Source: Microvirga sp. Mcv34
GTDB lineage: Bacteria > Pseudomonadota > Alphaproteobacteria > Rhizobiales > Beijerinckiaceae
Direction: 5' to 3'
DNA: 64,000 bases
NCBI RefSeq assembly: GCF_024519725.1
Contig: NZ_JALJRK010000015.1
Span: 1 to 64,000 of the forward strand
This document shows positions 8,278-43,497 of the stretch, piece after piece; positions within the stretch are counted from its first letter, which is position 1; each line of letters starts with the position of its first letter. Both the position numbers and the translations under genes were made by a program. The notes beneath the pieces were generated by a model. It did not search any database. It was not told the origin of the DNA and was given only the letters and a program-made list of their open reading frames with translations.

Positions 8278-8627
8278 ACGAGCTCAAGAAGCGTCTTGAT
8301 ACAGCCGCTAGCCGGCCCGGAGGCGCGAGCGGATCATGAACGCTTCAAATCGACCGGACAGGCCCAGCGCTTTCTTTCAGTGGATGATCAGATTACCAAC
8401 CGCTTCCGCCGTCCTGGGAACTCTAACGCCGCTGATCGTCGCCGGTCCCGCGCTCGGGCCTTCACGCGTTGGGCCCCCAGCGCTTAATCCTCATCGGAGA
8501 GATGAGGGTTGCGAGTTGAGGCCATCTCGTCCCAACGGCTATGACCTCAACCAAGATCCATAACAGCCTCTCGTCTTTGCCGAGGCGCATTTTTCGGTGA
8601 AGCGGATCCGCTTCACCGAAACATATT
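8278..8627. other. 350-bp intergenic region with two hairpins
   Basis: Between the AsnC-type gene and the M20 hydrolase gene. A weak hairpin (TCAAGA-AGCG-TCTTGA, 8284-8299) follows the AsnC stop. Further on CCTCATC-GGAGA-GATGAGG (8489-8507) forms a second hairpin. The right end holds the palindromic repeat described separately. An open frame from about 8337 has no homology that I recognise and I do not call it. Confidence 0.5.
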
Positions 8628-8630
8628 CTA
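8593..8630 (-). repeat. Palindromic repeat supplying the M20 gene's stop, terminator-like
   Basis: A perfect 28-bp palindrome with core GCGGATCCGC and arms TTCGGTGA/TCACCGAA, followed by ACATATTCTAG. The CTA of that tail is the TAG stop codon of the M20 hydrolase gene, so the stem begins 7 nt after the stop. Same architecture as the other CGGATCC elements in the window, with compensating changes in the arms. Confidence 0.75.
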
Positions 8631-10046
8631 GCCGCGCGACATGTCCAGCGGCGGCTCAACGCCCTCGCGCAGCGGGCTCACATACGGCGTTTCCCGCGTC
8701 CTCTCCGCGAGATCGGCCTTGGCGGCGGCCATGAGGGACGGGTCGGTGATCGCGGCCATGCCGGTGGCGGCCATCGCCTTGGCCACATGCACCATCGCCT
8801 TGTGCGCCGTCGGCATCTTGCCCTGGGCCACCACCTGCCACGTGTGAAACGGCGTGCCGATCGCCACAGTCGGCGCATGAGCCTGAACAGTGGGCACCAC
8901 CCAGCTCACGTCGCCGATATCGGTAGAACCGATCATGGGCTTGCGCGGCGAATCGAGCGGGGTCAGGAAATCCGCGAGAGGTGCATCGGTCTTCGGCTGA
9001 CCGATGGCGCGATAGACGGACGCAATCTCCTGGTCCGACAGCGTGGCGCGGATCTTGCGGGCGAAGTCGCGGTCGGCCTCGTCGAAGGGCGGCGCGCCGA
9101 GCTCCTCCATGGCGTTGTGCAGGGCCTGTTCGAGCGGCGTGTTCCCGAGCGTGTTCGAGACGGCGCTGACGATCCGCATCTCGACGCTGGTCTCCGTCAT
9201 CAGCGCGGCACCCTGGGCGATCTTGTGCACACGCTCGACGAGGTCGAGCATACCCTGAAGGTCCATGGCGCGGATCGAATAGCGCACGCGGGCATAGGCC
9301 TGCACCACGTTCGGCGCGATGCCGCCTGTGTCGAGGAGAGCGTAATGCACGCGCGCATCGGAGGGCATGTGCTCGCGCATGTAGTTCACGCCGACATTCA
9401 TCAACTCGACGGCATCGAGGGCGCTGCGTCCCAGGTGCGGCGCCGCGGCGGCGTGAGCCGCGCGGCCCGTGAAGGCGAAATCGGCGCGGGTGTTGGCGAG
9501 CGACAGGGCCGGCGCGACTTCCCAGAAGCTGTAGGGATGCCATGAGATCGCGATGTCGACATCGTCGAAGGCGCCGGCGCGCACCATGAAGGCCTTGGCG
9601 GCGCCACCTTCCTCGGCCGGGCAGCCGTAGTACCGGACGCGACCCGGAATGCCCTTCTCCGCCAGCCAGTTCTTCAACGCGACGGCGGCCAGCATGGCGC
9701 CAGAGCCGAGAAGGTTGTGCCCGCACCCGTGTCCATGGCCGCCGGGCTCGACGGGGCGATGCTCCGCGACGCCGGATTCCTGGCTCAGTCCCGGAAGGGC
9801 GTCGTATTCGCCGAGGAACGCGATGACCGGGCCGTCCTCACCGGCTTCGCCGATGACTGCGGTCGGAATGTCGGCCACACCCTCGGTGACGCGAAAACCC
9901 TGCTGCCGCAGTTCCGCGGCATGCTCGGCGGACGAGCGCACTTCCGTGTAGCAAACCTCCGGCATGCCCCAGACGCGGTCGCTCAGGGCAATGAGGCGGT
10001 CCTTGGCGGCATCCACATGCTGCCAGATCTCGTTTCGAACGTTCAT
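8628..10046 (-). CDS. M20-family amidohydrolase, AbgB-like
   Basis: A 472-residue zinc-dependent peptidase/amidohydrolase of the M20 family. Metal-binding features include GGHGHGCGHN (residues 102-111, Cys108 and His110) and the CPAEEGGAAKAF segment. A lid domain with FTGRAAHAAAAPHLGRSALDA follows. Length and motifs resemble AbgB (p-aminobenzoyl-glutamate hydrolase B subunit) and related amide hydrolases. A GGAG precedes the ATG at good spacing. It lies at the end of a peptide-transporter gene block, suggesting it cleaves an imported N-acyl or amide compound; the substrate is unknown. An AbgA-like partner is not seen. Confidence 0.8.
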   Translation of the reverse strand: MNVRNEIWQHVDAAKDRLIALSDRVWGMPEVCYTEVRSSAEHAAELRQQGFRVTEGVADIPTAVIGEAGEDGPVIAFLGEYDALPGLSQESGVAEHRPVEPGGHGHGCGHNLLGSGAMLAAVALKNWLAEKGIPGRVRYYGCPAEEGGAAKAFMVRAGAFDDVDIAISWHPYSFWEVAPALSLANTRADFAFTGRAAHAAAAPHLGRSALDAVELMNVGVNYMREHMPSDARVHYALLDTGGIAPNVVQAYARVRYSIRAMDLQGMLDLVERVHKIAQGAALMTETSVEMRIVSAVSNTLGNTPLEQALHNAMEELGAPPFDEADRDFARKIRATLSDQEIASVYRAIGQPKTDAPLADFLTPLDSPRKPMIGSTDIGDVSWVVPTVQAHAPTVAIGTPFHTWQVVAQGKMPTAHKAMVHVAKAMAATGMAAITDPSLMAAAKADLAERTRETPYVSPLREGVEPPLDMSRG

Positions 10047-10153
10047 GTCTTGCTCCAGAATCGGTCGTGCGCGGTCGTCGATGCGATGCCTGAAAGGAGA
10101 TGCTTCCACTTGCGCGAAATCATCTCTCTTCCTTGGGTTGCCGTCTTCGTCGA

Positions 10154-10190
10154 CGGTGAACCGGATCCAGTTCACCGCAGAATGCGTTAG
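10154..10190 (-). repeat. Palindromic repeat at the end of the alpha/beta hydrolase gene
   Basis: Arms CGGTGAAC and GTTCACCG (10154-10161 and 10170-10177) flank the core CGGATCCA, followed by CAGAATGCGTTAG. The TTA in this tail is the TAA stop of the hydrolase gene on the minus strand. The arm sequence differs from the other copies but pairing is retained. Confidence 0.7.
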
Positions 10191-11059
10191 AGGGCGCCCA
10201 CTTCGGCGGTGATCAGCTCTTCAGCCGGTGGAATGCGCCCCTCGAACCAATAGGCGGCGGCCGCGCGCGACATGGCGGCGCCGTCATGTCCCACGCCTTC
10301 GACGCGGATCAGTTTCCAATGGAAGGGAAGTCCAAGGCGCTCAGCTTCGCGGCGCGCGAAATCGTACATGAATTGTGCACGCCCGTAGCGATGCGGCCCC
10401 TGTCGCAGGGCCTCGGCCTGGGCCGGCAGGTTCGGGTCGTCGGTGCTGATATCCTGATCGCCCGCGAAGATGTGCATGGGATAGGCGAACCAGCGCGCCA
10501 GACTGTTCTCATCGAGGCCGAGGCCACCGAGCCCTTCAGGGAAGCTGCGCTCCAAGGTCGGCAAGGTGTACCAGCCGGGATTGCCGGCGATGACCGCTTC
10601 GAACGATTCATGATCCTGAGTCGCGAGCATCCGATGTGCGAATTGCCCGCCGGCGGAATGGCCGAAGAGCCGCGCCTTGGAGCGGCGCGTTACGCCGCCT
10701 TTCTGCAGGGCCGCGAAGACGCGGGCCGGTACGGCATAGAGCCACTTCTCGACGGGGCTTATGCTTCCCCCGTCCTCGACGACGAGGCCGTTATTGTACG
10801 ATTCCGCGCCTGGAAAATACGTATCGGAAAAAGTCGGCGCTGCAATCAGGATGCGGTGCTTCTCGGCGGCCGGAATCCAGAAATCCCGATATTCGTCGCC
10901 GTTGCGGAGCATGCCGTGCTGGACGATGACGACTGGATCGTCGGGGCCGTGATCGGCTGGGCGGTAGACGTTCACCTCGATCTTCCGGTCGGGGTGGTGC
11001 GGATCGACGAAGGGGAGCGTGCTGCGTCCGATCTCGGGGCTAAGAGTGATTGTCGTCAT
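10187..11059 (-). CDS. Alpha/beta hydrolase
   Basis: A 290-residue single-domain hydrolase with the nucleophile elbow GHSAGG (Ser135), an oxyanion region near VQHGMLRNGDEY, and a C-terminal GVGHDG that should hold the catalytic histidine. No signal peptide is seen, so it is probably cytoplasmic. Its start overlaps the stop of the upstream ABC ATPase gene by 4 nt (ATGA), which puts it in the transporter operon. An esterase or amidase acting on the imported substrate is plausible; specificity cannot be read from sequence. The gene ends inside a palindromic repeat. Confidence 0.78.
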   Translation of the reverse strand: MTTITLSPEIGRSTLPFVDPHHPDRKIEVNVYRPADHGPDDPVVIVQHGMLRNGDEYRDFWIPAAEKHRILIAAPTFSDTYFPGAESYNNGLVVEDGGSISPVEKWLYAVPARVFAALQKGGVTRRSKARLFGHSAGGQFAHRMLATQDHESFEAVIAGNPGWYTLPTLERSFPEGLGGLGLDENSLARWFAYPMHIFAGDQDISTDDPNLPAQAEALRQGPHRYGRAQFMYDFARREAERLGLPFHWKLIRVEGVGHDGAAMSRAAAAYWFEGRIPPAEELITAEVGAL

Positions 11060-12060
11060 GTGTTGTCCGAAGTGTGGAGATGGCAGGCTGCGCTGCGTCC
11101 TGGTGCGATTTCTTTCAGGACCGGGCGAACGTCACGGCATTTCGCCATCGCGTGCTCGCAGCGAGGGTGGAACGGGCAGCCGCCGGGCGGCGCCAGAGGG
11201 GAAGGGAGCTCACCCTTGAGCGGCTGGAACGCGCGCTTGCGCCGTTCCGTCGAAGGGCTCGCCGCGATGAGGGCCGCGCTGTAGGGATGGGCCGGCGCGG
11301 CGAAGACCTCGGAGGCCGGTCCGATCTCCACGATGCGCCCGAGATACATGATCGCGACCCGGTCGCTGATGTGCCGCACGACTCCCAGGTCATGGCTGAC
11401 GAACAGATAGGTCAGCCCGTGCTTCTCGCGGATGTCCATGAACAGGTTGATGACCTGCGCCTGGATCGAGACGTCGAGCGCGGAGACCGGCTCGTCGCAG
11501 ACCAGGAAGCCCGGCTTCACTGCGAGCGCGCGGGCGATACCGATGCGCTGGCGCTGGCCGCCGGAGAACTGATGCGGATAGCGGTTGCGATAGGCGACAT
11601 CGAGGCCGACCTCGGTCAGGGCCTTGTCGACGGCCGCGTCGATCTCATGCTTCGGCAGGAGACCGTGAACCCGCAGGGCTTCCCCGACGATCTTGCGCAC
11701 AGGCATCCGCGGATTGAGCGAGGCATAGGGGTCCTGGAACACCATCTGGACCTTGAGGAGATAATCCAGCCGGTCCTTGCCGCGCAGCTCGGCGACGCGC
11801 CGGCCCTCGTAAACGATGTCGCCGGCGCTGGGCTTGGTGATCCCGGTGGCGGCGCGCGCCAGCGTGGACTTGCCGCAGCCGGATTCGCCGACGAGGCCGA
11901 GCACCTCTCCGCGCTTCACGGTGAGATCGACACCGTCCACCGCCTTCAGCACGGGCGGCGGTGGCGCGCTCCCGATCGTGGCGAGAAGGCGCTGCGCGAA
12001 GGTCGACTTGCCGCGGAAGTATTTCTTGACGCCGCGCAGCTCGAAGAAGGGTTCGGTCAT
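11056..12060 (-). CDS. Oligopeptide-type ABC transporter ATPase, DppF-like
   Basis: A 334-residue ATPase. Walker A is GESGCGKST (58-66), the signature FSGGQRQRIGIARAL, Walker B FLVCDEPVSALD. The C-terminal oligopeptide/dipeptide extension with the cysteine-rich CPFHPRCEHAMAKC motif, typical of OppF/DppF and often binding an Fe-S cluster, is present. Start ATG overlaps the DppD-like stop by 4 nt. It pairs with the upstream ATPase to energise the importer. Substrate class (peptide, opine, nickel or other) cannot be decided here. Confidence 0.88.
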   Translation of the reverse strand: MTEPFFELRGVKKYFRGKSTFAQRLLATIGSAPPPPVLKAVDGVDLTVKRGEVLGLVGESGCGKSTLARAATGITKPSAGDIVYEGRRVAELRGKDRLDYLLKVQMVFQDPYASLNPRMPVRKIVGEALRVHGLLPKHEIDAAVDKALTEVGLDVAYRNRYPHQFSGGQRQRIGIARALAVKPGFLVCDEPVSALDVSIQAQVINLFMDIREKHGLTYLFVSHDLGVVRHISDRVAIMYLGRIVEIGPASEVFAAPAHPYSAALIAASPSTERRKRAFQPLKGELPSPLAPPGGCPFHPRCEHAMAKCRDVRPVLKEIAPGRSAACHLHTSDNT

Positions 12061-13040
12061 AGGGCAGCGCCTTCGGGCACGGGGTTGTGGCAGCGATAGC
12101 TCTGCCCGTTGCTCATGACCTGCGGCGGGGGATCGATCTGCGCGCAGACGGGCAGGGCGCGCTCGCATCGCGGACGGAACGGGCATCCGCTCGGGCGCGC
12201 ATCGATGCTGGGCGCCGCTCCGTTGATCTGCTTCAGACGCTCGCCGGGGACGACCGTCGCGGCCGAGGAGCCGAGCAGGCCGAGCGTGTAGGGATGGCGG
12301 GGGCGGTCGAGCACGTCGTCGACGGTTCCCGTCTCGACGATCCGCCCCGCATACATGACGGCGACCCGGTCGGCGAGCTCGGCCACGACGGCGAGATCGT
12401 GCGTGATCCAGAGGACCGCCGTGCCGGTCTCGCGACTGAGCTTCTGGACCTCGAACAGGATCTGGCTCTGGATCGTGACGTCGAGCGCCGTTGTCGGCTC
12501 GTCGGCGATGATCAGGTCGGGCCTGTTCAGGAGCGCCGTCGCGATGGCGACGCGCTGGCGCATGCCGCCGGAGAACTCGTGAGGATACTGCTTCAGGCGC
12601 GCGTCCGGGGACGAAATGCCGACCCGGGACAGGGCCCGCGACGCCTCCGCCAGGGCGTCCTGCCGGCTGCAGGAGCGGTGCTCCAGGATGGCCTCGCACA
12701 TCTGCTCGCCGATGGTGAGGACCGGGTTGAGGGTCATCAGCGGATCCTGGAAGATCATCGCGATGCGGTCGCCGCGCAGATGCCGCAGGCGCTCGTCGGT
12801 CGCCGTGCGGAGATCCTCTCCCTTGAACAGGACGTCGCCGGCAACGATCTCGCCGGGCGCGTCGATCAGCTGGACCAGGGAGAAGCCGGTGACAGACTTC
12901 CCCGAGCCGGACTCGCCGACGAGGCCCACGATCTCGCCGGGCTGCACGACGAGATCGACGCCGTCGACGGCGGGCCATGCACCGGCGAGATCGTGGAAGA
13001 CTGTTCGCAGGCCGCGAACTTCGAGCAGCGGGGAGGTCAT
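12057..13040 (-). CDS. Oligopeptide-type ABC transporter ATPase, DppD-like
   Basis: A 327-residue ATPase with Walker A GESGSGKSVTG, signature FSGGMRQRVAIATAL, Walker B LIIADEPTTALD and the C-terminal CPFRPRCERALPVC motif of the DppD/OppD group. It forms the nucleotide-binding pair with the DppF-like protein. The start overlaps the upstream permease stop by 4 nt; the order SBP, permease, permease, ATPase, ATPase is canonical for the family. Confidence 0.88.
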   Translation of the reverse strand: MTSPLLEVRGLRTVFHDLAGAWPAVDGVDLVVQPGEIVGLVGESGSGKSVTGFSLVQLIDAPGEIVAGDVLFKGEDLRTATDERLRHLRGDRIAMIFQDPLMTLNPVLTIGEQMCEAILEHRSCSRQDALAEASRALSRVGISSPDARLKQYPHEFSGGMRQRVAIATALLNRPDLIIADEPTTALDVTIQSQILFEVQKLSRETGTAVLWITHDLAVVAELADRVAVMYAGRIVETGTVDDVLDRPRHPYTLGLLGSSAATVVPGERLKQINGAAPSIDARPSGCPFRPRCERALPVCAQIDPPPQVMSNGQSYRCHNPVPEGAAL

Positions 13041-13945
13041 TGGCCCCTCACGTTGAAGCTTCGGCGCAGGCGCTCGCCCACGAGGTTGAGCGACATGATC
13101 AGGAGCACGAGGGCAATGCCCGGGAAAGCCGCGATCCAGTATTCGCCCGAGAGCAGGAATTCGAAACCGTTGGCGATCAGGAGCCCGAGGGAGGGCTGTG
13201 TGACCGGAACGCCGACGCCGAGGAACGACAGGGTGGCTTCGAGCGTGATGGCACTCGCGATGCTGATCGTCGAGACGACGAGGACCGAGCTGATGGAGTT
13301 CGGCAGGAGATGGGCCAGCATGATGTGGCGCGTCGGCAGGCCGAAATTGACAGCCGCCTCGATATATTCCTTACGCCGCTCGACGAGCGCCGCGGCGCGC
13401 ATCAGGCGGGCATATTGCGCCCATTGCACCAGGATGATGGCGATGATCACCTTGTCGACGCCGCGCCCGATGGAGGCAAGAAGTACGAGGGCGATCAGGA
13501 TCGACGGGAAGCCGAGCATGAAATCGACGACGCGCATGATCGCCGCGTCGGCGGCGCCGCCGAACTGGGCCGCGACGAGTCCGGCGAGAACCCCGATGGC
13601 GAGCGCGCCCGCGGTGGAGGTCAGGCCGACGAGCAGGCTGGTGCGCAGGCCGTAGAGGATGGCGCTGAGCATATCGCGGCCCTGCGCGTCGGTGCCGAGC
13701 CAGTAGGTGATGCCGGTCATGCCCTGCGCGCCGGGCTCCAGGCGGTTGTCCATCACGCTCAGCGACGCGAGGTCGTGCGGGTTCTGCGGCGCGATGAAGG
13801 GCGCGAGCAGCGCGAGCAGGAGGAGGAGCCCGAGAAGGATGATCGCGCCGCGCGTCGTCGGGCGGCTCTTGATCCGGCGCAGGACTTTCTGGCGCAGCGC
13901 CGTATCGGCGTCGGCCGCCACGGGCGCCGTCTTCGAAGCGATCAT
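13037..13945 (-). CDS. Oligopeptide-type ABC transporter permease, DppC-like
   Basis: A 302-residue inner-membrane permease. An N-terminal segment (GAIILLGLLLLLALLAPFIAP, about 34-54) is followed by a periplasmic loop (GTDAQGRDMLSAILYG) and five further hydrophobic segments, with an EAA-like loop near VERRKEYIEAAVNFG. These are the features of DppC/OppC. Overlaps both neighbours by 4 nt. Confidence 0.87.
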   Translation of the reverse strand: MIASKTAPVAADADTALRQKVLRRIKSRPTTRGAIILLGLLLLLALLAPFIAPQNPHDLASLSVMDNRLEPGAQGMTGITYWLGTDAQGRDMLSAILYGLRTSLLVGLTSTAGALAIGVLAGLVAAQFGGAADAAIMRVVDFMLGFPSILIALVLLASIGRGVDKVIIAIILVQWAQYARLMRAAALVERRKEYIEAAVNFGLPTRHIMLAHLLPNSISSVLVVSTISIASAITLEATLSFLGVGVPVTQPSLGLLIANGFEFLLSGEYWIAAFPGIALVLLIMSLNLVGERLRRSFNVRGQ

Positions 13946-14919: not shown

Positions 14920-14961
14920 GTCAGGCGTTCCGATCTGCTCGCGGCTTCGTTCATGGCTTGC

Positions 14962-16572: not shown

Positions 16573-16606
16573 TGAGTGTCTCTCCGGTTCCCTTGGTGGC
16601 TGCCTT

Positions 16607-16649
16607 TTGACAGATTTATTTTCTCAGATTAAAAATCATGAAAATTTTC
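16607..16649 (+). promoter_or_regulatory. AT-rich divergent control region with promoter-like boxes and GAAAATTTTC
   Basis: The gap between the dppA-like and rpiR-like genes is strikingly AT-rich. TTGACA (16607-16612) is followed 17 nt later by TAAAAA, a fair -35/-10 pair for the regulator gene. The perfect palindrome GAAAATTTTC (16640-16649) lies just downstream and could be the RpiR-family operator. Boxes were read by eye. Confidence 0.45.
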
Positions 16650-16674
16650 TGACGTCAACCAGTCGGGAGCGCGC

Positions 16675-17547: not shown

Positions 17548-17560
17548 AGAGCCGTCCTAC

Positions 17561-17680
17561 AGCATCGGATTGAATCCCAAAAGTGGACTTGCACTTTTGG
17601 GATTCAATCCGATGCTTCGTCCATCAATGAGAGCATCGTTCGGGCGGAAAACCGGATCCACTTTTCCGCACGATGCTCTA
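17561..17680. repeat. Composite palindromic repeat, two stem-loops
   Basis: First unit: perfect 24-nt arms (17561-17584 and 17593-17616, beginning AGCATCGG and ending CCGATGCT) around an 8-nt loop GGACTTGC. Second unit (17631-17680): outer arms GAGCATCGT/ACGATGCTC, inner arms GCGGAAAA/TTTTCCGC, core CCGGATCCA. The last CTA is the TAG stop of the DUF2783 gene. It lies between convergent genes and may end transcription in both directions. Confidence 0.8.
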
Positions 17681-17896
17681 GCCCGGTGCCGATCGTGTCT
17701 GTTCGAGACTCTGTTTTGCGAGCGCAAGCGCTTCCTGAAACACGGCCGGGTCGCCGATGTGGTTGGCAAGAATCAGCACGAGGGACGAATTGAGCGCGGC
17801 GCTCTGTTCGTCCGACAATCCGCGATGCGCTTCGATCAGCGCCCGGTAGGCGCGATCCGGATCGGGGAAGCGGCTTTCGGTCACGAGGGCGCTCAT
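17678..17896 (-). CDS. DUF2783 small protein
   Basis: A 72-residue cytoplasmic protein with RAYRALIEAHRGLSDEQS and LVLILANHIGD, which match the DUF2783 family as I know it. Genes of this family typically lie directly after a FAD-dependent aromatic monooxygenase, as here (103 bp downstream of one). Its function is unknown; a role as accessory subunit or stability factor for the oxygenase is possible. The stop codon lies inside the palindromic repeat. Confidence 0.72.
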   Translation of the reverse strand: MSALVTESRFPDPDRAYRALIEAHRGLSDEQSAALNSSLVLILANHIGDPAVFQEALALAKQSLEQTRSAPG

Positions 17897-17914
17897 GCGG
17901 GTTTCTCATCCAAA

Positions 17915-18014
17915 GCATCGAACGCAAAAGTGGGAACCGGTTTTGCGTGAACAGATGCGGTAAAAACAAAAAATGAGAGCATCGGATGTGCACTCGAGTT
18001 CACGTCCGATGCTC
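17915..18014. repeat. Composite palindromic repeat between DUF2783 and monooxygenase genes
   Basis: First unit: ACGCAAAA (17922-17929) pairs with TTTTGCGT (17941-17948), enclosed by GCATCG and GATGCG. Second unit: GAGCATCGGA (17977-17986) pairs with TCCGATGCTC (18005-18014). The stop codon and last codons of the monooxygenase gene lie in the second unit. It is a variant of the repeat family seen elsewhere in the window. Confidence 0.7.
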
Positions 18015-19601
18015 AAGATTCTTCATGCGGTTCGAGGCGCGCGCGATTGCTTCCGCCGTCGTGTGGCGCCAGCGCGCCGCGAGGTGCTGATCCGGACGGA
18101 CGAGATAGGTGCTGCCAGGCGTCGCGTCGAAACGTCGGGTGAAGAATCCTTCCGGATCGATCAGATCATGACCGATGACGATAACGTGCTTGCCGGACGG
18201 CGGAGGGCTGCCGTTGGGCACGTGGATCAGCGTCTCCTCGCTGCCCAGGGCTTCGAGCAGCCAGATCGGCTCGCCGCTGACTGTGCGCATAGGGGCATCG
18301 GGCACGGGCGCACCGAGACGGGCGGAGCCAGACCAGTCATCCTCATCGGGCGTGGACAGCGATGTCTCGTAGGTCGACGGCATCGACAGCCTGCCGGAAT
18401 TCACCATGCGCTTGGCGAAGGGCGCATGGCGCGCGAGGGCGAGCACCGCATCGCGGAAGCGCAGTTCCTGCGCCGAGCGCGGCGCGATGAAATCCGTCGA
18501 GCGGGTGGAATGGCCGATATTCTCGTCGGCGGCGGCCGAGCGTTCGGCATCATAGGTGTCGATCAGGCTCTCGGGCGCTTCGCCTCCGATCACGAACGCG
18601 AGCTTCCAGGCGAGGTTCTCCGCATCCTGGATCCCGGAATTGGCGCCGCGCGCGCCGAAGGGCGAGACCTGATGGGCGGCGTCGCCGGCGAAGACCACGC
18701 GGCCATGCACGAAGCGCTCCAGGCGCCGGCACTGGAACGTGTAGACTGACACCCATTCGAGCGTGAACGCGTCGTGTCCGAGCATCTGGCGGATGCGCGG
18801 GATCACGCGCTCGGGCGCCTGCTCGGCCGTCGCGTCGGCATCGGGGCCGAGCTGCAGGTCGATGCGCCACACGTCGTCCGGTTGCTTGTGGAGAAGTGCC
18901 GAGCGGCCGTCGTGGAAGGGCGGATCGAACCAGAACCAGCGCTCGGGCGGAAAGTCGCCCTTCATCTTCACGTCGGCGATCAGGAAGCGGTCCTCGAAGA
19001 CCTCGCCCCTGAAATCGAGCCCGAGCATGCCGCGCAGGGCCGAGCGTGCGCCGTCGGCCGCCACCACCCAATCGGCATCGAGATCGTAGGAGCCCTCGGG
19101 CGTCTCGATGGTGAGCGTCACACCGTCGTTGCGGCGCTTGAGGGCGCTGACCTTGTTGCGCCAGCGGATCTCGAGATGCGGCAGTTCGGCGGCGCGCTCC
19201 ACGAGTGCGTGTTCGAGATAATATTGCTGCAGGTTGATGAAGGCCGGCATCTTATGCCCGTCCTCGGGCAGCAGGTCGAAGGCGTAGAGCTGTTCGTCGC
19301 GCTGGAACACCTTGCCGAGCTTCCAGGTGACGCCTCTTTCCAGGCAGGGATCGGCGACGCCGAGCCGGTCGAGGATCTCGAGGGTGCGCTTGGCGTAGCA
19401 GATGCCGCGCGAGCCTTCGCCGATCCGGTCCGCGTCATCGAGCAGCACCACCGGGATGCCGCGCTGCGCCAGGTCGATGGCGGTGCACAGCCCGACCGGG
19501 CCCGCGCCGACGACGATCACGGGATGACGGGCGGGGGAGGGGTGATCCTGGTCGGCGCAGCGGCGATAACCGAACTGGTAGAGAATCCTGCGAGTGTTCA
19601 T
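18000..19601 (-). CDS. FAD-dependent aromatic monooxygenase, MhpA/PheA-like
   Basis: A 533-residue class A flavoprotein monooxygenase. Motifs are the FAD-binding VIVVGAGPVGLC (29-40), the DG motif VVAADGARSALR, and the GD motif VVFAGDAAHQVSPFGARGAN. A C-terminal thioredoxin-like region follows, as in 3-(3-hydroxyphenyl)propionate and phenol hydroxylases. It should hydroxylate an aromatic ring using NAD(P)H and oxygen; the substrate is not evident. The ATG before NTRRILYQFG gives the usual N-terminus. The first 25 residues precede the FAD motif, as in DUF2783-associated members. The last residues (EHRT) are encoded inside a palindromic repeat. Confidence 0.82.
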   Translation of the reverse strand: MNTRRILYQFGYRRCADQDHPSPARHPVIVVGAGPVGLCTAIDLAQRGIPVVLLDDADRIGEGSRGICYAKRTLEILDRLGVADPCLERGVTWKLGKVFQRDEQLYAFDLLPEDGHKMPAFINLQQYYLEHALVERAAELPHLEIRWRNKVSALKRRNDGVTLTIETPEGSYDLDADWVVAADGARSALRGMLGLDFRGEVFEDRFLIADVKMKGDFPPERWFWFDPPFHDGRSALLHKQPDDVWRIDLQLGPDADATAEQAPERVIPRIRQMLGHDAFTLEWVSVYTFQCRRLERFVHGRVVFAGDAAHQVSPFGARGANSGIQDAENLAWKLAFVIGGEAPESLIDTYDAERSAAADENIGHSTRSTDFIAPRSAQELRFRDAVLALARHAPFAKRMVNSGRLSMPSTYETSLSTPDEDDWSGSARLGAPVPDAPMRTVSGEPIWLLEALGSEETLIHVPNGSPPPSGKHVIVIGHDLIDPEGFFTRRFDATPGSTYLVRPDQHLAARWRHTTAEAIARASNRMKNLEHRT

Positions 19602-22841: not shown

Positions 22842-22954
22842 AGAGCATCGGACCCAAAAGTGGACTTGCACTTTTGGGATCCATCCGACGCTCCAACTCT
22901 TGGCTGGCGCATCGTTCGAGCGGAAAACCGGATCCACTTTTCCGCATGATGCGC
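22842..22954. repeat. Composite palindromic repeat, two stem-loops
   Basis: First unit: CCCAAAAGT/ACTTTTGGG around the same GGACTTGC loop as the 17.6-kb copy. Second unit: GCGCATCG...GATGCGC outer arms, GCGGAAAA/TTTTCCGC inner arms and CCGGATCCA core. The outer arm of the second unit changed from AGCATC to GCGCATC with a matching change on the other side. Confidence 0.78.
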
Positions 22955-27785: not shown

Positions 27786-27789
27786 GCAA

Positions 27790-28620: not shown

Positions 28621-28728
28621 GAGCATCTGACCGAAAAGTGACTTGCACTTCCAGGGTCGTTTCCGATGCTTCACTCTTTGGTGGGCGCATCGTTCGGCAC
28701 GGATACGCCGATCCGCACGATGCGTCGA
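28621..28728. repeat. Degenerate copy of the composite palindromic repeat
   Basis: The order is that of the full copies (GAGCATC, AAAAGTGACTTGCACTT, CCGATGCTTC, GCGCATCGTTCGG, CGCCGATCCGCACGATGCG), but pairing is imperfect and the GGATCC core has become CGATCC. It lies between the GntR gene and the peroxiredoxin gene, about 115 bp after the former's stop. Confidence 0.6.
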
Positions 28729-32415: not shown

Positions 32416-32706
32416 ATGTATGTCGTCATTCGCAAGTTCAGCAAGATGCGCTCGGTGCCTGAGGCGGCGCGGCGGGCGGAGAGCGGGATCGGCCAGATCC
32501 TGCGGCAGTCCCCCGGGTTCCAGGCATATCATGTATTCGATTGCGGCGGCGGAGCGGGCGGCTCCATCACCCTGTTCGACAGCCGCGAAACGGCTCTTGC
32601 GGCCAATGAAAAGGCCCTGTCGTGGATTCGCGCCAGCCTGGCAGATCTGATTCAAGGCGAACCGGAGATCACGGCCGGGGAGATTTTGGCAACAGTGAAG
32701 CCTTGA
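32416..32706 (+). CDS. Small ABM-like protein
   Basis: A 96-residue cytoplasmic protein: YVVIRKFSKMRSVPEA, GIGQILRQSPGFQAYHVFDCGGG, SITLFDSRETALAANEKALSWI. The alternating strand/helix pattern and the 'bias, F-x-A-Y, sum of score' layout resemble antibiotic-biosynthesis-monooxygenase (ABM) dimeric alpha-beta barrel domains. GGAGG stands 5 nt before the ATG. It lies 40 bp after the universal stress gene. Function unknown. Confidence 0.6.
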   Translation: MYVVIRKFSKMRSVPEAARRAESGIGQILRQSPGFQAYHVFDCGGGAGGSITLFDSRETALAANEKALSWIRASLADLIQGEPEITAGEILATVKP

Positions 32707-32768
32707 TGGCGCGAGCTGTTTTGTGTGAGCTGTCGGAGCCTGTCGATAACCGGCATTTGCGCCTTTAG

Positions 32769-34067
<1,299 letters not shown>

Positions 34068-34071
34068 AGCC

Positions 34072-35085: not shown

Positions 35086-35086
35086 C

Positions 35087-36415: not shown

Positions 36416-36420
36416 ATCCG

Positions 36421-37818: not shown

Positions 37819-37917
37819 CGTGGGGTGACGATACGACAGCTTGCGATCCGGCACTAAGCTTCCATCGCCCACGCTCCACGACGAGGGGTACCGGTGAGTT
37901 CGAGCGCGGAATCGCCG

Positions 37918-39909
37918 TCAGGGAATGTCCGTGCCCGATCCCGTGGTCGAATGTGCGACGGGCGTCTCTTTGCCGCTCGGCGCGCAGAGGTTCGCGGCTT
38001 GCAGCAATCCGTACCCATAGGTCTTGTCGCGGCCTGGTGTGCCGAGATCGAGCGTGCTGCTCTCCAGGGTTGCCCGAAGATCCGTCGCGTTCGGCGAAAT
38101 GCTGGAGGCGCTGAGGATCGCTGCCGCGGCCGTTACGAACGGAACCGCATAGGAGGTGCCGCTCTTGACGGTGCTCCCGTCCGACGAGGCGACCCATAGA
38201 TCCACCCCTGGGGCGGCGATATCGATGTATTCGCCCTGCGTCGCCCGCGAATAGATCGTGAGCTTCTTGTCGATCGCCGTGACGGCGATCACGCCCGGAT
38301 AGGCGGCAGGATAGGACGGCTCCGCTCCCGCGCCGTTATTGCCAGCCGCCGCAAGAATGATCATGCCTTTCGCCTGGGCGGAAGCAATCGCCCGCTTCAG
38401 AACTTCATTGGAAGGCCCGGACAGGCTCATGTTGACAATGCGGATGTCGCGCTCCGCCAAGGCTTCCAGAGCTCGCACGAGGGTCACCACGTCGGTCCGG
38501 TCCGCCGTTCCGCTGTCCCGGTAAAAGGCGTCCACTGCCACGAGACGCTCATTGGGGAGGAGGCCTGGCGTAGGGCTGTCGTTCCTGCCGACGAGGAGGG
38601 CGGCGATCGCCGTGCCATGATCCCGCTGGGACGGGCTGCCACGCAGATCGAGGCTCGGCAGGATTTCGATGGACTGCCCTTTCAGCGCGTCGTGGTCAGG
38701 ATTGATGCCCGTGTCGATCACGCCAATCGTTGGGGTTGGGCTGCATTGTTCGGAAGCGGACGCGCTCCAGCCGACGAGCGAGATCGCCTCGCAGCTTGGG
38801 CCGGTGCAGTTCGCCGGCCCTTCATCCGTATAATAGTAATGATCGAGATCGACCGTCGCGTTTCCATCGACCATGCGGATCTTGCGCTCGGCCTGGCTGA
38901 GAGACATCCCCCGCGGTGGGATGAGCTGAACGACACTCGCGAGACTGCCGCTCGTCTGCTTCTCCGTCCGGAAACCCTGCGCGCTCAGGCGTGCCAAGCT
39001 GCTCGATGTCAGGCCCACCGCGACAAGCGAGTTCTTCGCTCGCGCGGGTTTGGCAAGAGACTGGCTGGCTGAGGCTACGGGCACTCTGCGAGCGGCAGAC
39101 TGCACCGGGCTCGCTGGGCGGGCATTCATGCTCTTGGCCGCGGCTCGCGCCTTAGCCGCCTCGCCCGGATGCACCGAGGATTGTTTCGCACGAACGTTTG
39201 AGGATGCGGATTTGGCTTTCGAAGCGTTCGGTTGCGGTTTCGCTTTTCCGGCCGGGGCTGCCGATGGAGCCGTCAGCGCGCGAAGGCTCTCGGAGATCGC
39301 TCCGAACAGGGCCGACAATCCCCCGGTCAATGTGGGCTCCGCTTGGTTCTTGCCCGAAGAGCTTCCCGCTGTCCGGCCTAGAGCCTTTCCGTTGTCTGCA
39401 CCCTTTCCTTGCCCGGCCGAACCGCTCTGGCCGGCGGGACTTCCCTGTCCCGACGGGTTCCCCGCGCTCGAAGCGGCGCCTTGCCCGGATGTATTGCCAC
39501 GGGAGCCGGAATTGCCCTGCCCGGCATTGGCGCTTCCGCCACCGGGGCTGTTTCCATTGCTCGCACGCCCACCATTGCCGTTGCCCTTGTTGCTGGCGTT
39601 CCCTGCTGCGTCGCTCCGTCCTGAAGCGCCGTCGCCGCCCGCATTGCCGCTGTTCCCGGCATTGCCGTTTCCGCTATTTCCGGCGTTACCGTTCCCGTTG
39701 TTTCCGGCATTGCCTTTGCCGCCCGAATTGCCGTTCTCGTTGCCTCCGCTGTTTCCCCGACCGCCGCCGTTGTTGCCGTCCCTGGCGATCGCGGAGGCGT
39801 TTAGCACAATGAGATTGCCGTTCTTGGCTGTTTCGACCTGAAACTCCAGCGGGTACACGACAGTGAGGCACGATACGGCAATCAGTAGATGGCGTTGTCC
39901 TGACTTCAT
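37918..39909 (-). CDS. Subtilisin-family (S8) serine protease with Gly/Asn-rich N-terminus
   Basis: A 663-residue protein. The S8 domain has the full triad: Asp399 in IGVIDTGIN, His431 in RDHGTAI, Ser586 in SGTSYAVP. Residues 1-20 are a hydrophobic signal-like stretch; about 45-190 is a low-complexity Gly/Asn/Ser region; 195-330 is Ala/Ser/Lys-rich. A conserved block SQAERKIRMVDGNATVDLDH precedes the catalytic domain. It is probably exported. The ATG at MKSGQRH is chosen; an upstream in-frame start at 39996 would precede a promoter-like sequence. Pairs oddly with the ECF-sigma cluster next door, with which it may share a promoter type. Confidence 0.82.
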   Translation of the reverse strand: MKSGQRHLLIAVSCLTVVYPLEFQVETAKNGNLIVLNASAIARDGNNGGGRGNSGGNENGNSGGKGNAGNNGNGNAGNSGNGNAGNSGNAGGDGASGRSDAAGNASNKGNGNGGRASNGNSPGGGSANAGQGNSGSRGNTSGQGAASSAGNPSGQGSPAGQSGSAGQGKGADNGKALGRTAGSSSGKNQAEPTLTGGLSALFGAISESLRALTAPSAAPAGKAKPQPNASKAKSASSNVRAKQSSVHPGEAAKARAAAKSMNARPASPVQSAARRVPVASASQSLAKPARAKNSLVAVGLTSSSLARLSAQGFRTEKQTSGSLASVVQLIPPRGMSLSQAERKIRMVDGNATVDLDHYYYTDEGPANCTGPSCEAISLVGWSASASEQCSPTPTIGVIDTGINPDHDALKGQSIEILPSLDLRGSPSQRDHGTAIAALLVGRNDSPTPGLLPNERLVAVDAFYRDSGTADRTDVVTLVRALEALAERDIRIVNMSLSGPSNEVLKRAIASAQAKGMIILAAAGNNGAGAEPSYPAAYPGVIAVTAIDKKLTIYSRATQGEYIDIAAPGVDLWVASSDGSTVKSGTSYAVPFVTAAAAILSASSISPNATDLRATLESSTLDLGTPGRDKTYGYGLLQAANLCAPSGKETPVAHSTTGSGTDIP
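39646..39760. repeat. Short imperfect tandem repeats encoding the Gly-Asn region
   Basis: Read on the + strand, near-repeats of TTTCCGGCATTGCCGTTTCC and close variants recur four or five times. On the coding strand they encode runs of Gly-Asn with Ala and Ser in the subtilase N-terminus. Such repeats can change length by slippage. Confidence 0.65.
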
Positions 39910-39987
39910 CGAAACGCTCACCCTTGCAGCGGAATTCCCGGTGAGATCCTCGGGAGCAGATTGGGTCCACCGGATCCAACTGGCAAT

Positions 39988-40014
39988 AACGGCCAAGGCA
40001 TAGGGTTTGTTTCA
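39988..40014 (-). promoter_or_regulatory. ECF-type promoter candidate before the subtilase gene
   Basis: On the minus strand TGAAAC, 17 nt, then CGTT; the CGTT ends 78 nt upstream of the MKSGQRH start. The nine bases TGAAACAAA line up with TGGAATAAA of the two plus-strand sites, with the same 14-nt distance to CGTT. Confidence 0.45.
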
Positions 40015-40220
40015 TCCCGCGGAGAGGCGCAGGGAAAATCGGAAAGCCGCCAGTCCTAAGGATAGACTTGCCGGAACTATTCTTGAAACGATGTCTAATT
40101 TCGTCCTTTGATGAACATAAGATGAATAACCGCAAGGTATGATTGCGCTATGCAGTCTCCGGTGTCCATATTCGGCCGAACCCAGCGTTCCGGTTAAGTG
40201 AACTAAACTCGAATTTGCTC

Positions 40221-40246
40221 TGAAACTACTTGGTGAATGACGCGTT
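40221..40246 (+). promoter_or_regulatory. ECF-type promoter candidate before the DUF1236-like gene
   Basis: TGAAAC, 16 nt, then CGTT, ending 47 nt upstream of the ATG. Weakest of the four matches, with spacing one shorter. Confidence 0.35.
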
Positions 40247-40293
40247 GTCGGTTGCCGGGTGCGAAACCCGAACATTCATTCAGGAGTAAGATC

Positions 40294-40701
40294 ATGTCGA
40301 AGAAGTTCCTTGCCGCAGCTACTGTTCTCGCCGCTCTTGCCCCTGCGGCCGCCTTCGCTCAGTCGGGTGGCGCAGCGGCCGGTGCCGCCACGGGCGCGGT
40401 CGGCGGTGCTATCGTCGGCGGTCCGGTCGGTGCGGCCGTGGGTGGCGTGACGGGTGCCATCGTCGGCGGTATCGCGGACCAGCAGCAGCCGCAGTTCCGC
40501 CAGTATGTGACGACCCAGTCCGTCCCGTCTTACACCTACAAGGAAGAGGTGCGTGTGGGCGCGGTTCTGCCCGAGTCCGGCGTGACCTATCACGAGGTGC
40601 CGGCCCAGTACAAAGTGAAGGGCTACAAGTACACCGTCGTGAACGACACCCCCGTGCTGGTCGAGCCGAGCACCCGCAAGATCGTGCAGGTCATCCACTA
40701 A
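40294..40701 (+). CDS. DUF1236-like small exported protein
   Basis: A 135-residue protein with a signal peptide (1-22, LAPAAAFAQ), a Gly/Ala/Val-rich segment (about 24-64, GGAIVGGPVGAAVGGVTGA type, glycine-zipper-like) and a C-terminal DUF1236-type part (PEYSGVTYHEVP-like: PESGVTYHEVPAQY, then VVNDTPVLVEPSTRKIVQVIH). The C-terminus resembles that of the small protein at 42238. AGGAG precedes the ATG. Followed by a strong terminator. The glycine zipper suggests membrane or envelope association. Function unknown. Confidence 0.75.
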   Translation: MSKKFLAAATVLAALAPAAAFAQSGGAAAGAATGAVGGAIVGGPVGAAVGGVTGAIVGGIADQQQPQFRQYVTTQSVPSYTYKEEVRVGAVLPESGVTYHEVPAQYKVKGYKYTVVNDTPVLVEPSTRKIVQVIH

Positions 40702-40728
40702 GTTTCACGGTTTCTCTGACCTCGACGA

Positions 40729-40754
40729 CGGGCGGCCTCTCGGCCGCCCGTTTT
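40729..40754 (+). terminator. Rho-independent terminator
   Basis: Stem CGGGCGGCC/GGCCGCCCG with loop TCTC followed by TTTT, 28 nt after the DUF1236-like stop. The pairing is perfect over 9 bp. Confidence 0.88.
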
Positions 40755-40789
40755 CGTATCGGGAGCGATTGCTCTTTTCCACTTGAGAT

Positions 40790-40816
40790 TGGAATAAAGC
40801 GACTAGGTTCATCGTT
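40790..40816 (+). promoter_or_regulatory. ECF-type promoter candidate before the sigma factor gene
   Basis: TGGAAT, 17 nt, then CGTT, ending 28 nt before the sigma ATG. The layout resembles GGAA...CGTT promoters of alphaproteobacterial ECF sigma factors, so the gene may be autoregulated. Confidence 0.5.
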
Positions 40817-40844
40817 ATGGAGCAATAGGCCATGCGGAGCAGGA

Positions 40845-41336
40845 ATGCCGGCAGCCATAGGACAGGAACTGGTGGCGCTTCTGCCACGGCTGAGGCGCTT
40901 CGCGCTCGTATTGTGTCGCTCGCAACCCCTTGCGGACGATCTCGTCCAAGGCGCTTGTGAACGTGCGCTCGCCAATGCGGACAGCTGGTCCCCCGGGACC
41001 AAGTTCGACGCATGGATGTTCCGAATTCTCCGCAATTACTGGATCGATCACCTGAGACGGATGAGAACCGAAGGTATGGCGGAAGATCTATCGCAGCAAA
41101 CGCAACTTGTCGGCGATCCAGGCGAAGGGCCGATCCTGAGCAGGCTGGTCCTGTCCGAGGTCCAGCGTGCCATCGATCATTTGCCTCAAGAGCAAAGGGA
41201 GGTTCTCCTGCTCGTCTGTGCCGAGGATCTCAGCTACCGGGAGACCGCCGAGATCCTCGGTGTTCCCATTGGGACCGTCATGAGCCGCCTGGCGCGGGCG
41301 CGCAAGCGGCTGATGGAACTGACGGCGGCCGCCTAG
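40845..41336 (+). CDS. ECF-type RNA polymerase sigma factor
   Basis: A 163-residue sigma-70 family protein with region 2 (about 10-75; LADDLVQGACERALAN, FDAWMFRILRNYWIDHLRR) and region 4 (about 100-155; LPQEQREVLLLVCAEDLSYRETAEILGVP, then GTVMSRLARARKRL). No signal sensing domain is fused. The next gene encodes a membrane anti-sigma factor, giving a classical sensor pair. A GGAAT-N17-CGTT sequence upstream could be its own promoter. Confidence 0.88.
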   Translation: MPAAIGQELVALLPRLRRFALVLCRSQPLADDLVQGACERALANADSWSPGTKFDAWMFRILRNYWIDHLRRMRTEGMAEDLSQQTQLVGDPGEGPILSRLVLSEVQRAIDHLPQEQREVLLLVCAEDLSYRETAEILGVPIGTVMSRLARARKRLMELTAAA

Positions 41337-41368
41337 ACGCGGACGGTATGAAAAGGGGAGCCGATAGA

Positions 41369-42124
41369 ATGTCCCAGCTACATCTCAGCGATGAGATCCT
41401 GATGGCCTTTGCCGATGGTGAACTTGACGGGCCCACGGCGACGGCCATGGCCAAGGCGATGGCCGAAGATCCTCTGGTGGCTAAGCGCGTCGTGGAATTC
41501 CAGCAAAGTCGCCGCCTGGCGCGATCCGCCTTCTCGGCCGTTTCTCTGCCCGATGTCCCGCCGCACCTGAGAGCGGCCGTGTCCGCTCAGATCGAGGCCT
41601 ATGAGGGTGGGCGAAAGCCCAGCCCGGCTGCGGATGTCAAGCCGCTGAAGAGCGGCTGGTTCGGGCGACGGTCCTCATTCGTGCCCATGGCTCTGGCGGC
41701 ATCGATCGCAGCTGTTGCAATCGGCTTGGGGTATTTCGCCGGATCCTGGGAGAGAGTAGGGGCCGGGGGGCTCATGGCCAGGCTGGAGAGCCCCATGGTC
41801 CACAACGCCTTGAGCAGGAGCGCCGCGGGCCAGGACGTGGAGCTGCCGTTCGGCCGGCTGCGGGTCATCTCGACTTACCACCTAGCGAATGGATCCCTCT
41901 GTCGTGAATTCCGGCTGCAAGCTTCCCGTGAGGCGGCCGAGGCTGTTGCCTGCCGCAGAGACGAATGGAAGACGACCTTCGCTGTGGCGAAGGTGGTGAA
42001 CGACGGCGATTATGCGCCAAGCGGGGGCGACGACCTGATGGCGACCTATTTGCAGAGCATCGGTGCAGGCGAAGTCTTGGTCGGTGAAGCAGAAGCTCGG
42101 GCTCTTGCGGAGGCGAACCGCTAA
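41369..42124 (+). CDS. Membrane-anchored anti-sigma factor
   Basis: A 251-residue protein. The N-terminal cytoplasmic part (1-90; LSDEILMAFADGELDG, AMAEDPLVAKRVVEFQQSRRLA) resembles zinc-less anti-sigma domains; one transmembrane helix lies at about 103-125 (FVPMALAASIAAVAIGLGYF); the remainder is periplasmic. The ATG at MSQLHLSD is chosen with GGGGAG upstream; MKRGADRMSQ 21 nt earlier is possible. It should hold the ECF sigma factor at the membrane until an envelope signal releases it. Confidence 0.8.
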   Translation: MSQLHLSDEILMAFADGELDGPTATAMAKAMAEDPLVAKRVVEFQQSRRLARSAFSAVSLPDVPPHLRAAVSAQIEAYEGGRKPSPAADVKPLKSGWFGRRSSFVPMALAASIAAVAIGLGYFAGSWERVGAGGLMARLESPMVHNALSRSAAGQDVELPFGRLRVISTYHLANGSLCREFRLQASREAAEAVACRRDEWKTTFAVAKVVNDGDYAPSGGDDLMATYLQSIGAGEVLVGEAEARALAEANR

Positions 42125-42175
42125 GCTTCAGCGTCAAGGTCCCTAGCCTGTATGTCCGGGAAATTTGGAGGAAGC

Positions 42176-42202
42176 TGGAATAAACCCACGCGCCGATCCG
42201 TT
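42176..42202 (+). promoter_or_regulatory. ECF-type promoter candidate before the second DUF1236-like gene
   Basis: TGGAAT, 17 nt, then CGTT, ending 35 nt before the ATG. It repeats the TGGAATAAA block found before the sigma gene exactly, including spacing, while the bases between differ. Confidence 0.55.
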
Positions 42203-42237
42203 CTCTGCTAACGCCCGGACCGTGAGAGAGTGTGAGG

Positions 42238-42588
42238 ATGAAAGCCGCGTATCATCTGGCGTTAGCTGTTCTCTCGATGGGAGCTGTTGTGGCGCCTACG
42301 ACGGCACCGAACGCGACAGATCCGGTAACGGCATCGATATTCCAAGCTCATGTCATCCCGGATATCGTCAGTCATGTTGCCGCGGAAGTGTCCTCGAGAC
42401 TGACCACAAATCGGCAGGGAGCGGCGGCAGATGACGTCGAACTGAGAATCTCTATCGGAGAAAGTCTCTCCCACTCCATCGAGCTGCATCCGATACCGAG
42501 GCATGAAACCTATCGCTATGCCATGGTCGACGGACATCGGCTCATCGTCGACGCGGCATCCCGCAATATCATCTACGTCATACAATGA
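42238..42588 (+). CDS. Small exported protein with DUF1236-like C-terminus
   Basis: A 116-residue protein with a signal peptide (1-22, MKAAYHLALAVLSMGAVVAP) and a C-terminal part (SHSIELHPIPRHETYRYAMVDGHRLIVDAASRNIIYVIQ minus ends) that parallels the ending of the protein at 40294 (VNDTPVLVEPSTRKIVQVI). It has no Gly-rich insert. It directly follows the sigma/anti-sigma genes. A periplasmic target of the ECF sigma factor is a sensible guess. Confidence 0.65.
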   Translation: MKAAYHLALAVLSMGAVVAPTTAPNATDPVTASIFQAHVIPDIVSHVAAEVSSRLTTNRQGAAADDVELRISIGESLSHSIELHPIPRHETYRYAMVDGHRLIVDAASRNIIYVIQ

Positions 42589-42649
42589 AAGCCCCGAGGT
42601 CATAGGGCGGGGACAATGTTGACCTGCCCGAAGAAAGGGTGGCCGGATC

Positions 42650-43378
42650 ATGGCACTGCATAGTGTGAACGGAGCATGCTTCGAACTCGACGGCAGAGGC
42701 CGCTTCTCCGCCATCGTTTTTCCTGTTTGTAGGAACCATGTGCTGCGTCTCGGTTTGGAAAGCCTCCTGTCCGAGACTGATTTTACCGTTTGGCATGAGA
42801 ACATCGATGGCTTCGCGTGCCTGCCCGCCGTTCAGGCTGGAGTCGCTGCGCTTTTCATCATCGATGCGAGCAGCTTCGCGAACGGAGCCATCGACCTCGT
42901 CAAGAGATTGAAATCTCATGCTCCTGCGGCAAGGATCGTCATCGTGGCGGACACCTTCGATCCACACACCGTGAGCATGGCTTGGGATGCAGGCGTTCAC
43001 GGATTCTGTCTGTCGCATCATAGGCGGGAGGTTTTCATCAGGTCACTGGAATTGGTGATGCTGGGCGAAGCTGTCCTCCCTGCAACCATTGTTCTGCCGA
43101 TGGCAGGACTGGATACTCACCATCATCGCCATGCATATACGGGTGGCGCTCAGCACGGGCATGTCGCGGCGCCACCTCTATCGCATCGAGAGGTCGAGAT
43201 ATTGGCCTGCCTGCGGGACGGCGCTCCCAACAAGGTCATTGCACGCAAGCTGAGCCTCTCCGAAGCGACAGTGAAGGTTCACGTCAAAACGCTTTTGAGG
43301 AAGATCGGCGTCTGCAATCGAACCCAGGCTGCCTTATGGGCGACAAGACATGCCGCGGCCGATTTGAAGTCACTATAG
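42650..43378 (+). CDS. LuxR/NarL-family regulator with atypical receiver
   Basis: A 242-residue protein with a receiver-like N-terminal domain (about 18-140) and a C-terminal LuxR helix-turn-helix (about 178-235; LSHREVEILACLRDGAPNKVIARKLSLSEATVKVHVKTLLRKIG minus ends). The phosphoacceptor position seems retained (LFIIDASS), but the acidic pair after the first strand is missing (IVFPVCRNH). A His-rich stretch (THHHRHAY) lies in the linker. No kinase gene is adjacent. It may act without phosphorylation. Confidence 0.75.
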   Translation: MALHSVNGACFELDGRGRFSAIVFPVCRNHVLRLGLESLLSETDFTVWHENIDGFACLPAVQAGVAALFIIDASSFANGAIDLVKRLKSHAPAARIVIVADTFDPHTVSMAWDAGVHGFCLSHHRREVFIRSLELVMLGEAVLPATIVLPMAGLDTHHHRHAYTGGAQHGHVAAPPLSHREVEILACLRDGAPNKVIARKLSLSEATVKVHVKTLLRKIGVCNRTQAALWATRHAAADLKSL

Positions 43379-43384
43379 TCGGAG

Positions 43385-43406
43385 AGGGTCCTTCCCGTTG
43401 GACCCT
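43385..43406. terminator. Hairpin between convergent genes
   Basis: AGGGTCC/GGACCCT stem with an 8-nt loop, 6 nt after the LuxR-type stop, followed by GCTCTTC. It can serve the LuxR-type gene; it lacks a long T-run. Confidence 0.6.
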
Positions 43407-43430
43407 GCTCTTCATTGCGCCCTGTCTTTT

Positions 43431-43497
43431 TAGCACTGGACCGAAAGCGGGTCCGCAATTCCCTCACGTGCGCATCGGGCATGCAGGATGCTCTAAC
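43431..43497 (-). repeat. Degenerate palindromic repeat at the end of the GntR gene
   Basis: AGCACTGGACCGAAAGCGGG followed by CGCATCGGGCATGCAGGATGCTCTAA. The CTA in its tail is the TAG stop of the GntR gene, as in the better conserved copies. The pairing is partly lost. Confidence 0.5.

Follow-up and report, generated by a model that had tools for sequence, protein, structure and literature searches.

Palindromic repeats accompany the ends of several genes in a 64,000-nucleotide stretch of Microvirga sp. Mcv34 DNA (contig NZ_JALJRK010000015.1, positions 1 to 64,000; hereafter the window). We consider it very likely, with a probability of about 0.87 as judged from the sequence, that these repeats belong to three or more subfamilies, designated A, B and C, of miniature inverted-repeat transposable elements (MITEs) of the IS630 type, each copy comprising two hairpins. 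Their link with stop codons would result from target choice and the first base of the element, probably together with survival of harmless insertions. An earlier note on this DNA had described seven copies of one repeat family with five stop codons lying inside them, and had proposed that the element may insert at or shape gene ends and act as a terminator.

Copies were collected with covariance models. Model R1, built from 23 subfamily A sequences including the copies at 17.6 and 22.8 kb of the window, returned 146 rows at E≤1 in the Mcv34 genome. Of these, 116 were used, omitting 29 opposite-strand repeats of places already listed and a weak match at a contig end (C282:1-64). They correspond to 109 non-overlapping places, among them weak matches (E up to 1) whose ends are uncertain. 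As 11 of the 109 overlap B matches, 98 A copies remain to be counted. Model R2 for subfamily B returned 108 rows at E≤0.001, some of them overlapping A, and B counts refer to the best 30 of the 108 rows. The set of own copies analyzed below therefore comprises 128 elements (98 A plus 30 B). Subfamily C was revealed by the loci of the arm pattern CGGTGAA...TTCACCG, which was found in 47 rows over both strands when up to two mismatches were allowed, compared with 0 for the reversed control. The cores of the copies at 8.6 and 10.15 kb are of this type. C counts refer to the 14 of 17 loci from these rows that have a recognisable right end; within this set the 10.15-kb copy, whose ends were mis-set, is scored as a miss, and L414, although counted as a hit, is a short and questionable one. 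The elements are mostly 90–135 bp long, contain no transposase gene and occur in many copies, as expected for MITEs. R1 matches at E≤1e-6 are present in 47 of the 48 genomes of the genus.

In subfamily A, two hairpins are separated by a short linker and the outer ends read, for instance, GAGCATCG or GCGCATCG. In B, ~101 bp long, the ends read AAGCATCGAACGC and GAGCATCGGACGTGA; in C, ~91 bp long, they read GAGCATTTTTCGG and GAGCTGTTTCC. The inverted ends mostly carry GAGC or a near variant with TA alongside. Of 256 ends, 170 begin with the element base G, 60 with A, 17 with C and 9 with T; hence G or A is found at 230/256 ends, and at 122 of the 129 ends flanked by TA. According to the earlier note, arm sequences differ between copies while pairing is kept. 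Indeed, 97.4% of cells are paired in the 23 A copies, and 7 of 37 A pairs have changed on both sides, which exceeds all 500 shuffles as well as all six slid controls. This is support rather than proof for a kept structure, as related sequences can beat such shuffles, and part of the arm differences reflects distinct subfamilies instead.

Evidence for insertion came from comparison with the close relatives G035, G031 and G027, which are 92, 91 and 90% identical, respectively, to Mcv34 across 1,501 bases of the flavin adenine dinucleotide (FAD) monooxygenase gene. A locus was counted when both flanks were found in the DNA of the relative with at most 10 bases between them; as many as 19 bases of a flank did not align and were extrapolated. 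At 13 aligned loci, the flanks overlapped by 2 bp in eight cases, by 3 bp in three and by 4 bp in one, and lay 3 apart at the remaining locus. With the TA flanks described below, the elements show the 2-bp TA target duplication of an IS630-type MITE, and the assumption of a mobile repeat family is supported. The sequence of the window at 17.6 kb is GGGC-TA-(119 bp)-TA-GGACGGCTC, where G031 has GGAA-TA-GAACGGCTC and G035 also possesses a single TA; in G027 this site carries 11 further bases. The B copy at 17.9 kb is missing from loci L031-L035 and from G035, G031 and G027, with a 2-bp overlap of the flanks in the latter three. At L241 the elements are nested: a B copy interrupts the linker of an A copy that stands uninterrupted in the relative. 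Finally, at the stop codon of the M20 peptidase gene G027 carries a B element where the window has a C-type relic, i.e. a separate insertion. The tail GATGCTCTAG, which had been held to form stop codons by itself, does exist, but comparison with the empty sites assigns its TA to the target.

TA flanks the 128 own copies 63 times on the left and 66 times on the right, compared with a background of 1.8% in noncoding DNA. The target rebuilt from the 36 copies with TA on both sides is CTAG in 22, CTAA in 5, TTAG in 4 and another sequence in 5 cases. Among flanks that have lost TA, the commonest replacements are TG (15) and CA (12) to the left and CA (14) to the right of the element. They correspond to changes of CTAG to CTGG or CCAG, the pattern that erosion of CTAG by very-short-patch repair would produce.

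A candidate partner for mobilisation is present as well. The Mcv34 genome yields 15 DDE_3 matches, two of which are located within 1,052-bp units flanked by TA, and this IS630-type unit was detected in 30 of the 48 genus genomes at E≤1e-50. Seventeen unit loci were inspected (16 of the 30 plus L113); 15 have TA at both ends and a GAGC-type end, the exceptions being L352, with AA at one end, and L356, which is truncated. The coding sequence of the L114 transposase is divided between two frames, with matches to HTH_Tnp_IS630 and DDE_3. Comparison of end consensus strings, typed from the alignments, shows that the elements share terminal inverted repeats with autonomous IS630 elements at the second-hairpin end: the run identical to the right end of the unit covers 12 bases for B and 11 for A, and a second IS630-type unit (L112), bordered by CTAG at both ends, has a 9-base run in common with C. 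We infer that an IS630-type transposase may mobilise the elements in trans. IS630 reportedly prefers TA within CTAG, as described by Tenzen and Ohtsubo in 1991. In vitro, a transposase of the IS630 family targets and duplicates TA (PMC2170065). In two places, G005:C86:92027-93187 and G036:C1:2631533-2632712, the unit directly adjoins an element copy, as if the CTAG at the element end had served as target for the unit.

To relate the elements to stop codons, gene ends were taken from our own codon-usage caller, which can miss small genes. In 38 of the 128 own copies, 45 gene ends have the T of the stop codon at offset -2, meaning that the stop is composed of TA plus the first element base (TAG 29, TAA 11, TGA 5). 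Every other offset from -15 to 60 accounts for at most three own ends. The same peak is observed in G035 (1.37 Mb), with 17 ends at -2 in 16 of 52 copies and at most two at other offsets in this range. At seven own copies, both of two convergent genes end at the sides of the element through such stops. Stops inside the element occur in 10/128 own copies. Placement relative to stop codons is thus clearly non-random, as had been supposed. The five stops in the window are positioned as reported. Those of the M20 peptidase, the alpha/beta hydrolase and DUF2783 consist of the adjoining TA and the first element base, and the GntR stop resembles these three, in a copy that is unconfirmed; the FAD monooxygenase stop lies in an element arm.

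These observations could be explained as follows. An IS630-family transposase would insert the elements at TA, best within CTAG, and thereby duplicate TA. Since the element usually starts with G or A at either end, a TAG or TAA stop hit at its TA would usually be rebuilt as TAG or TAA at the same codon, whichever side is considered, and the protein left unchanged. Landing in a stop codon would therefore be safe; insertions into coding sequence are presumably purged by selection, and stops would account for a sizeable share of the CTAG sites at which insertion is tolerated.

How large this share should be was estimated from G035 DNA outside elements, in which 435 TA belong to stops versus 4,222 in noncoding DNA (9.3%), the corresponding figures being 176 versus 953 for YTAR (15.6%) and 40 versus 179 for CTAG (18.3%; 40/219). 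In own DNA around the copies they are 200 versus 1,833 for TA, 91 versus 380 for YTAR and 33 versus 68 for CTAG (33%; 33/101). Since the latter DNA was chosen near copies and was left unmasked for C and weak B copies, the G035 values are preferred, but both are given. Subfamily A conforms to the expectation: 19/98 own and 8/36 G035 copies are located at stops (p 0.43 and 0.33 versus the 18% null), and the own share even falls under the 33% null of the own region (p 0.0025). B copies, however, are found at stops in 19/30 own cases (p 6e-8 for the 18% and 6e-4 for the 33% null) and in 8/16 cases in G035 (p 0.004). For C the figure is 8/14 (p 0.001 and 0.05, respectively), perhaps an excess relative to the G035 value only. 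Copies common to both genomes are not independent in these comparisons. Moreover, stop-sited B copies lie between convergent genes in 14/19 own and 5/8 G035 cases, compared with 8/40 CTAG and 56/176 YTAR stops in the neutral G035 DNA. We infer that selection causes the excess of B, and perhaps of C, at stops and the convergent excess of stop-sited B; the latter points either to a role of some sort or to strong purifying selection. That B, and perhaps C, is aimed at or kept at stops, B especially between convergent genes, is a tentative view to which we give rather little credence. If true, B and C would be more than neutral cargo and form a mobile gene-end module that closes each gene with a TAG or TAA of its own and has a hairpin on either side.

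The B figures also bear on the strongest alternative, in which the elements are functional gene-end modules (bidirectional terminators or stabilisers of mRNA 3' ends) selected at stops, mobility being secondary. Such a role would fit the abundance of B at stops and its convergent context in both genomes, the strong folds at five of the seven window sites, the two-sided changes in A pairs and a T-rich stretch of the B linker, which follows a few bases after the second hairpin on one strand. However, stop-sited own B copies have no orientation bias (12 versus 12 ends), on which ground co-option of B as an oriented terminator was rejected, and a simple terminator scan confined to 17.5-18.1 kb found 0 terminators and thus called none at the 17.6- and 17.9-kb copies. 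Furthermore, orthologues without the window copy keep their gene end, A does not exceed the CTAG expectation, and survival at safe sites yields a convergent excess too. We therefore regard this alternative as unlikely, and the terminator action that had been proposed for the elements, which found no backing in the scan or in the B orientation, is unproven.

Active targeting of stop codons or gene 3' ends by the transposase, beyond its taste for CTAG, is more improbable still. It would account for the p values of B and C and for the separate hit of the M20 stop in G027, but A is not above expectation and falls below the own-region null, and purifying selection against insertions in promoters and operons gives the same excess. 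In addition, no protein is known to us that recognises stop codons in DNA. A REP/REPIN nature of the repeats, with movement by a RAYT (Y1) transposase, is very improbable: the palindromes are short and of high copy number and three partial Y1_Tnp matches occur near contig ends, but a 2-bp TA duplication together with ends common to a DDE IS630-type unit is not the Y1 mode of transposition.

Several observations weigh against transposition into TA as the explanation for the elements and their stop codons. Five of the 13 aligned loci lack an exact 2-bp overlap, and at most empty sites the dinucleotide of the relative is not TA, these sites often being diverged. TA is present on both sides in 36/128 copies, when independence of the two sides predicts 32.5; decay or mis-set ends must therefore be assumed, and we read the copies with one-sided TA as decayed. 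Agreement with the insertion sequences is poorer at the first-hairpin ends (identical runs 0-8). Among five Microvirga plasmid places inspected, three came with a gene table, and in these three no gene stop was found at the element border. B exceeds the CTAG expectation, and target preference alone is thus not the whole story. Transposition itself was never observed, movement being read from sequence comparison.

Next, the effect of insertion on gene products was addressed. Orthologues that lack the own copy end at the same residue in 10/10 comparisons (three each for DUF2783, the M20 peptidase and the alpha/beta hydrolase, one for the gene at C278:69655), although the G027 M20 orthologue carries a different copy at its stop. 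GntR was aligned with its G035 orthologue over 102 bases only and is not among the 10. On these comparisons, the element is rejected as the usual maker of gene ends, and the idea that it shapes them as a rule is not supported; among the genes examined, only the FAD monooxygenase end was remodelled. Here, the ancestral-type end ...RMKGFEGDYV* (L031) has become ...RMKNLEHRT*, with the stop located in the element arm, 12 bases inside. Among named sequences, the orthologues nearest to this gene (18.0-19.6 kb) come from Microvirga species. In L031-L035 the FAD monooxygenase stop overlaps the DUF2783 start as ATGA, whereas in the window ~100 bases, mostly element DNA, separate both genes. The insertion (17678-18014) broke this overlap, and the two genes may formerly have been translationally coupled.

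When the window was scanned with R1, matches were obtained at 22.8 kb (E 3e-35), 17.6 kb (2e-33), 28.6 kb (1e-17), 17.9 kb (1e-11), 10.15 kb (5e-6) and 8.6 kb (6e-4); the scores at 17.6 and 22.8 kb are partly due to construction, as both copies belong to the building set. Six of the seven copies reported earlier were thus recovered, but at 43.4 kb neither R1 (E≤1) nor R2 (E≤0.01) found a match. The fold z-scores are -10.6 (17.6 kb), -7.0 (8.6 kb), -5.8 (22.8 kb), -4.2 (17.9 kb), -3.8 (10.15 kb), -1.9 (28.6 kb) and -0.04 (43.4 kb), the last being no better than shuffles. The 43.4-kb site is possibly a relic of the family.

Table 1. Element copies, target duplications and associated stop codons in the window.
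Feature	Position	Strand	Evidence
Degenerate copy with C-like core, approximate ends	8584..8628	-	R1 E 6e-4; exact C arm pattern
TAG stop of M20 peptidase, TA + first element base	8628..8630	-	sequence; orthologues in G035, G031 and G027 end at same residue
Two-hairpin copy, degenerate, arms of C type; ends approximate; missing from three relatives	10085..10187	-	R1 E 5e-6
TAA stop of alpha/beta hydrolase (esterase-like), TA + first element base A	10187..10189	-	sequence; orthologues
Intact A copy, 119 bp, two hairpins	17560..17678	-	R1 E 2e-33; fold z -10.6
TA, one side of duplication	17558..17559	.	single TA at empty site in G035 and G031
TA, second side of duplication; with 17678 forms TAG stop of DUF2783	17679..17680	.	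empty site; orthologues
B copy, 102 bp, in 3' end of FAD monooxygenase gene	17913..18014	+	R2 123 bits (in R2 building set)
TGA stop of FAD monooxygenase, inside element arm	18000..18002	-	last residues EHRT element-coded
Intact A copy; common to G035, empty in G031 and G027	22843..22954	-	R1 E 3e-35
Degenerate A copy; G027 also has a copy	28621..28725	-	R1 E 1e-17
Putative relic at GntR stop, unconfirmed member	43433..43493	-	TA-GAGCATC in sequence; no model match

Elements of comparable design are known from other bacteria. The intergenic mosaic element RIME of rhizobia, which Osteras is said to have described in 1995, likewise consists of two palindromes; the likeness is one of layout, and a comparable hairpin is present in two Bradyrhizobium loci and in related loci. 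Brucella, also an alphaproteobacterium, carries the 103-106-bp palindromic repeats Bru-RS1 and Bru-RS2, likened here by description (PMC10800456 and PMC2267715). RUP of Streptococcus pneumoniae, which is associated with IS630-Spn1, is similar in its size of ~107 bp, its TA target and the ends it has in common with a resident IS630 (PMC2229807 and PMC3049150); the Microvirga elements differ from it by their two hairpins, their sequence, the CTAG preference and the reconstitution of stop codons. Close precedents for repeats at gene ends are BOX and SPRITE of the same species: according to PMC3049150, BOX encodes the stop in 36 of 58 overlapping genes, truncation not being strongly evidenced, and SPRITE is enriched near the 3' ends of convergent genes. 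These are different elements, however, and in Microvirga the stop is formed by TA plus the first element base and empty sites were compared. The Coxiella MITEs QMITE1 and QMITE2 overlap gene 3' ends by few bases and one provides a new C-terminus, but the available part of PMC5896051 states no stop-reconstitution rule and describes the direct repeats of QMITE2 as unique to each copy. In the accessible portion of the open-licence literature, BOX and QMITE were found as precedents and an explicit stop-reconstitution rule was not found.

If correct, the explanation provides a simple and testable rule for the frequency with which small bacterial repeats carry the stops of genes, i.e. a CTAG-liking transposase and a first base that restores a stop from TA. 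Landing sites can be predicted from the rule, which would also explain why, at seven own copies, convergent pairs end at the sides of a repeat. For genome annotation it is a caution that a stop carried by a repeat may be ancestral. Together with the candidate IS630 partner, the element offers a system in which movement could be measured.

Some matches hint at relatives outside the genus. RF02600 (Brucella small RNA CI27) aligned over the full length of B with 38.5 bits for L234; further scores were 30.9 and 23.1 bits, all being below the gathering cut-off of 59.8. The regions concerned are 1493-1676 in L234 and 17903-18058 in the window. This suggests that the small RNA family may itself be a repeat of a B-like kind. 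Matches to microRNA families in Rfam were dismissed as chance hits of a long hairpin. In the Sphingobium plasmids AP027315.1, AP027328.1, AP027340.1 and AP027325.1, 38-49 bases of the first A hairpin are found at 86-90% identity, a hint at wide or horizontal spread. Finally, hairpins like GCATGATC...GAAAAGTG...CGGTTTTC...GATCATGC occur in Bradyrhizobium and related loci (L084 10357-10471, L047 4073-4213, L090 18559-18654), pointing to a possible order-wide superfamily.

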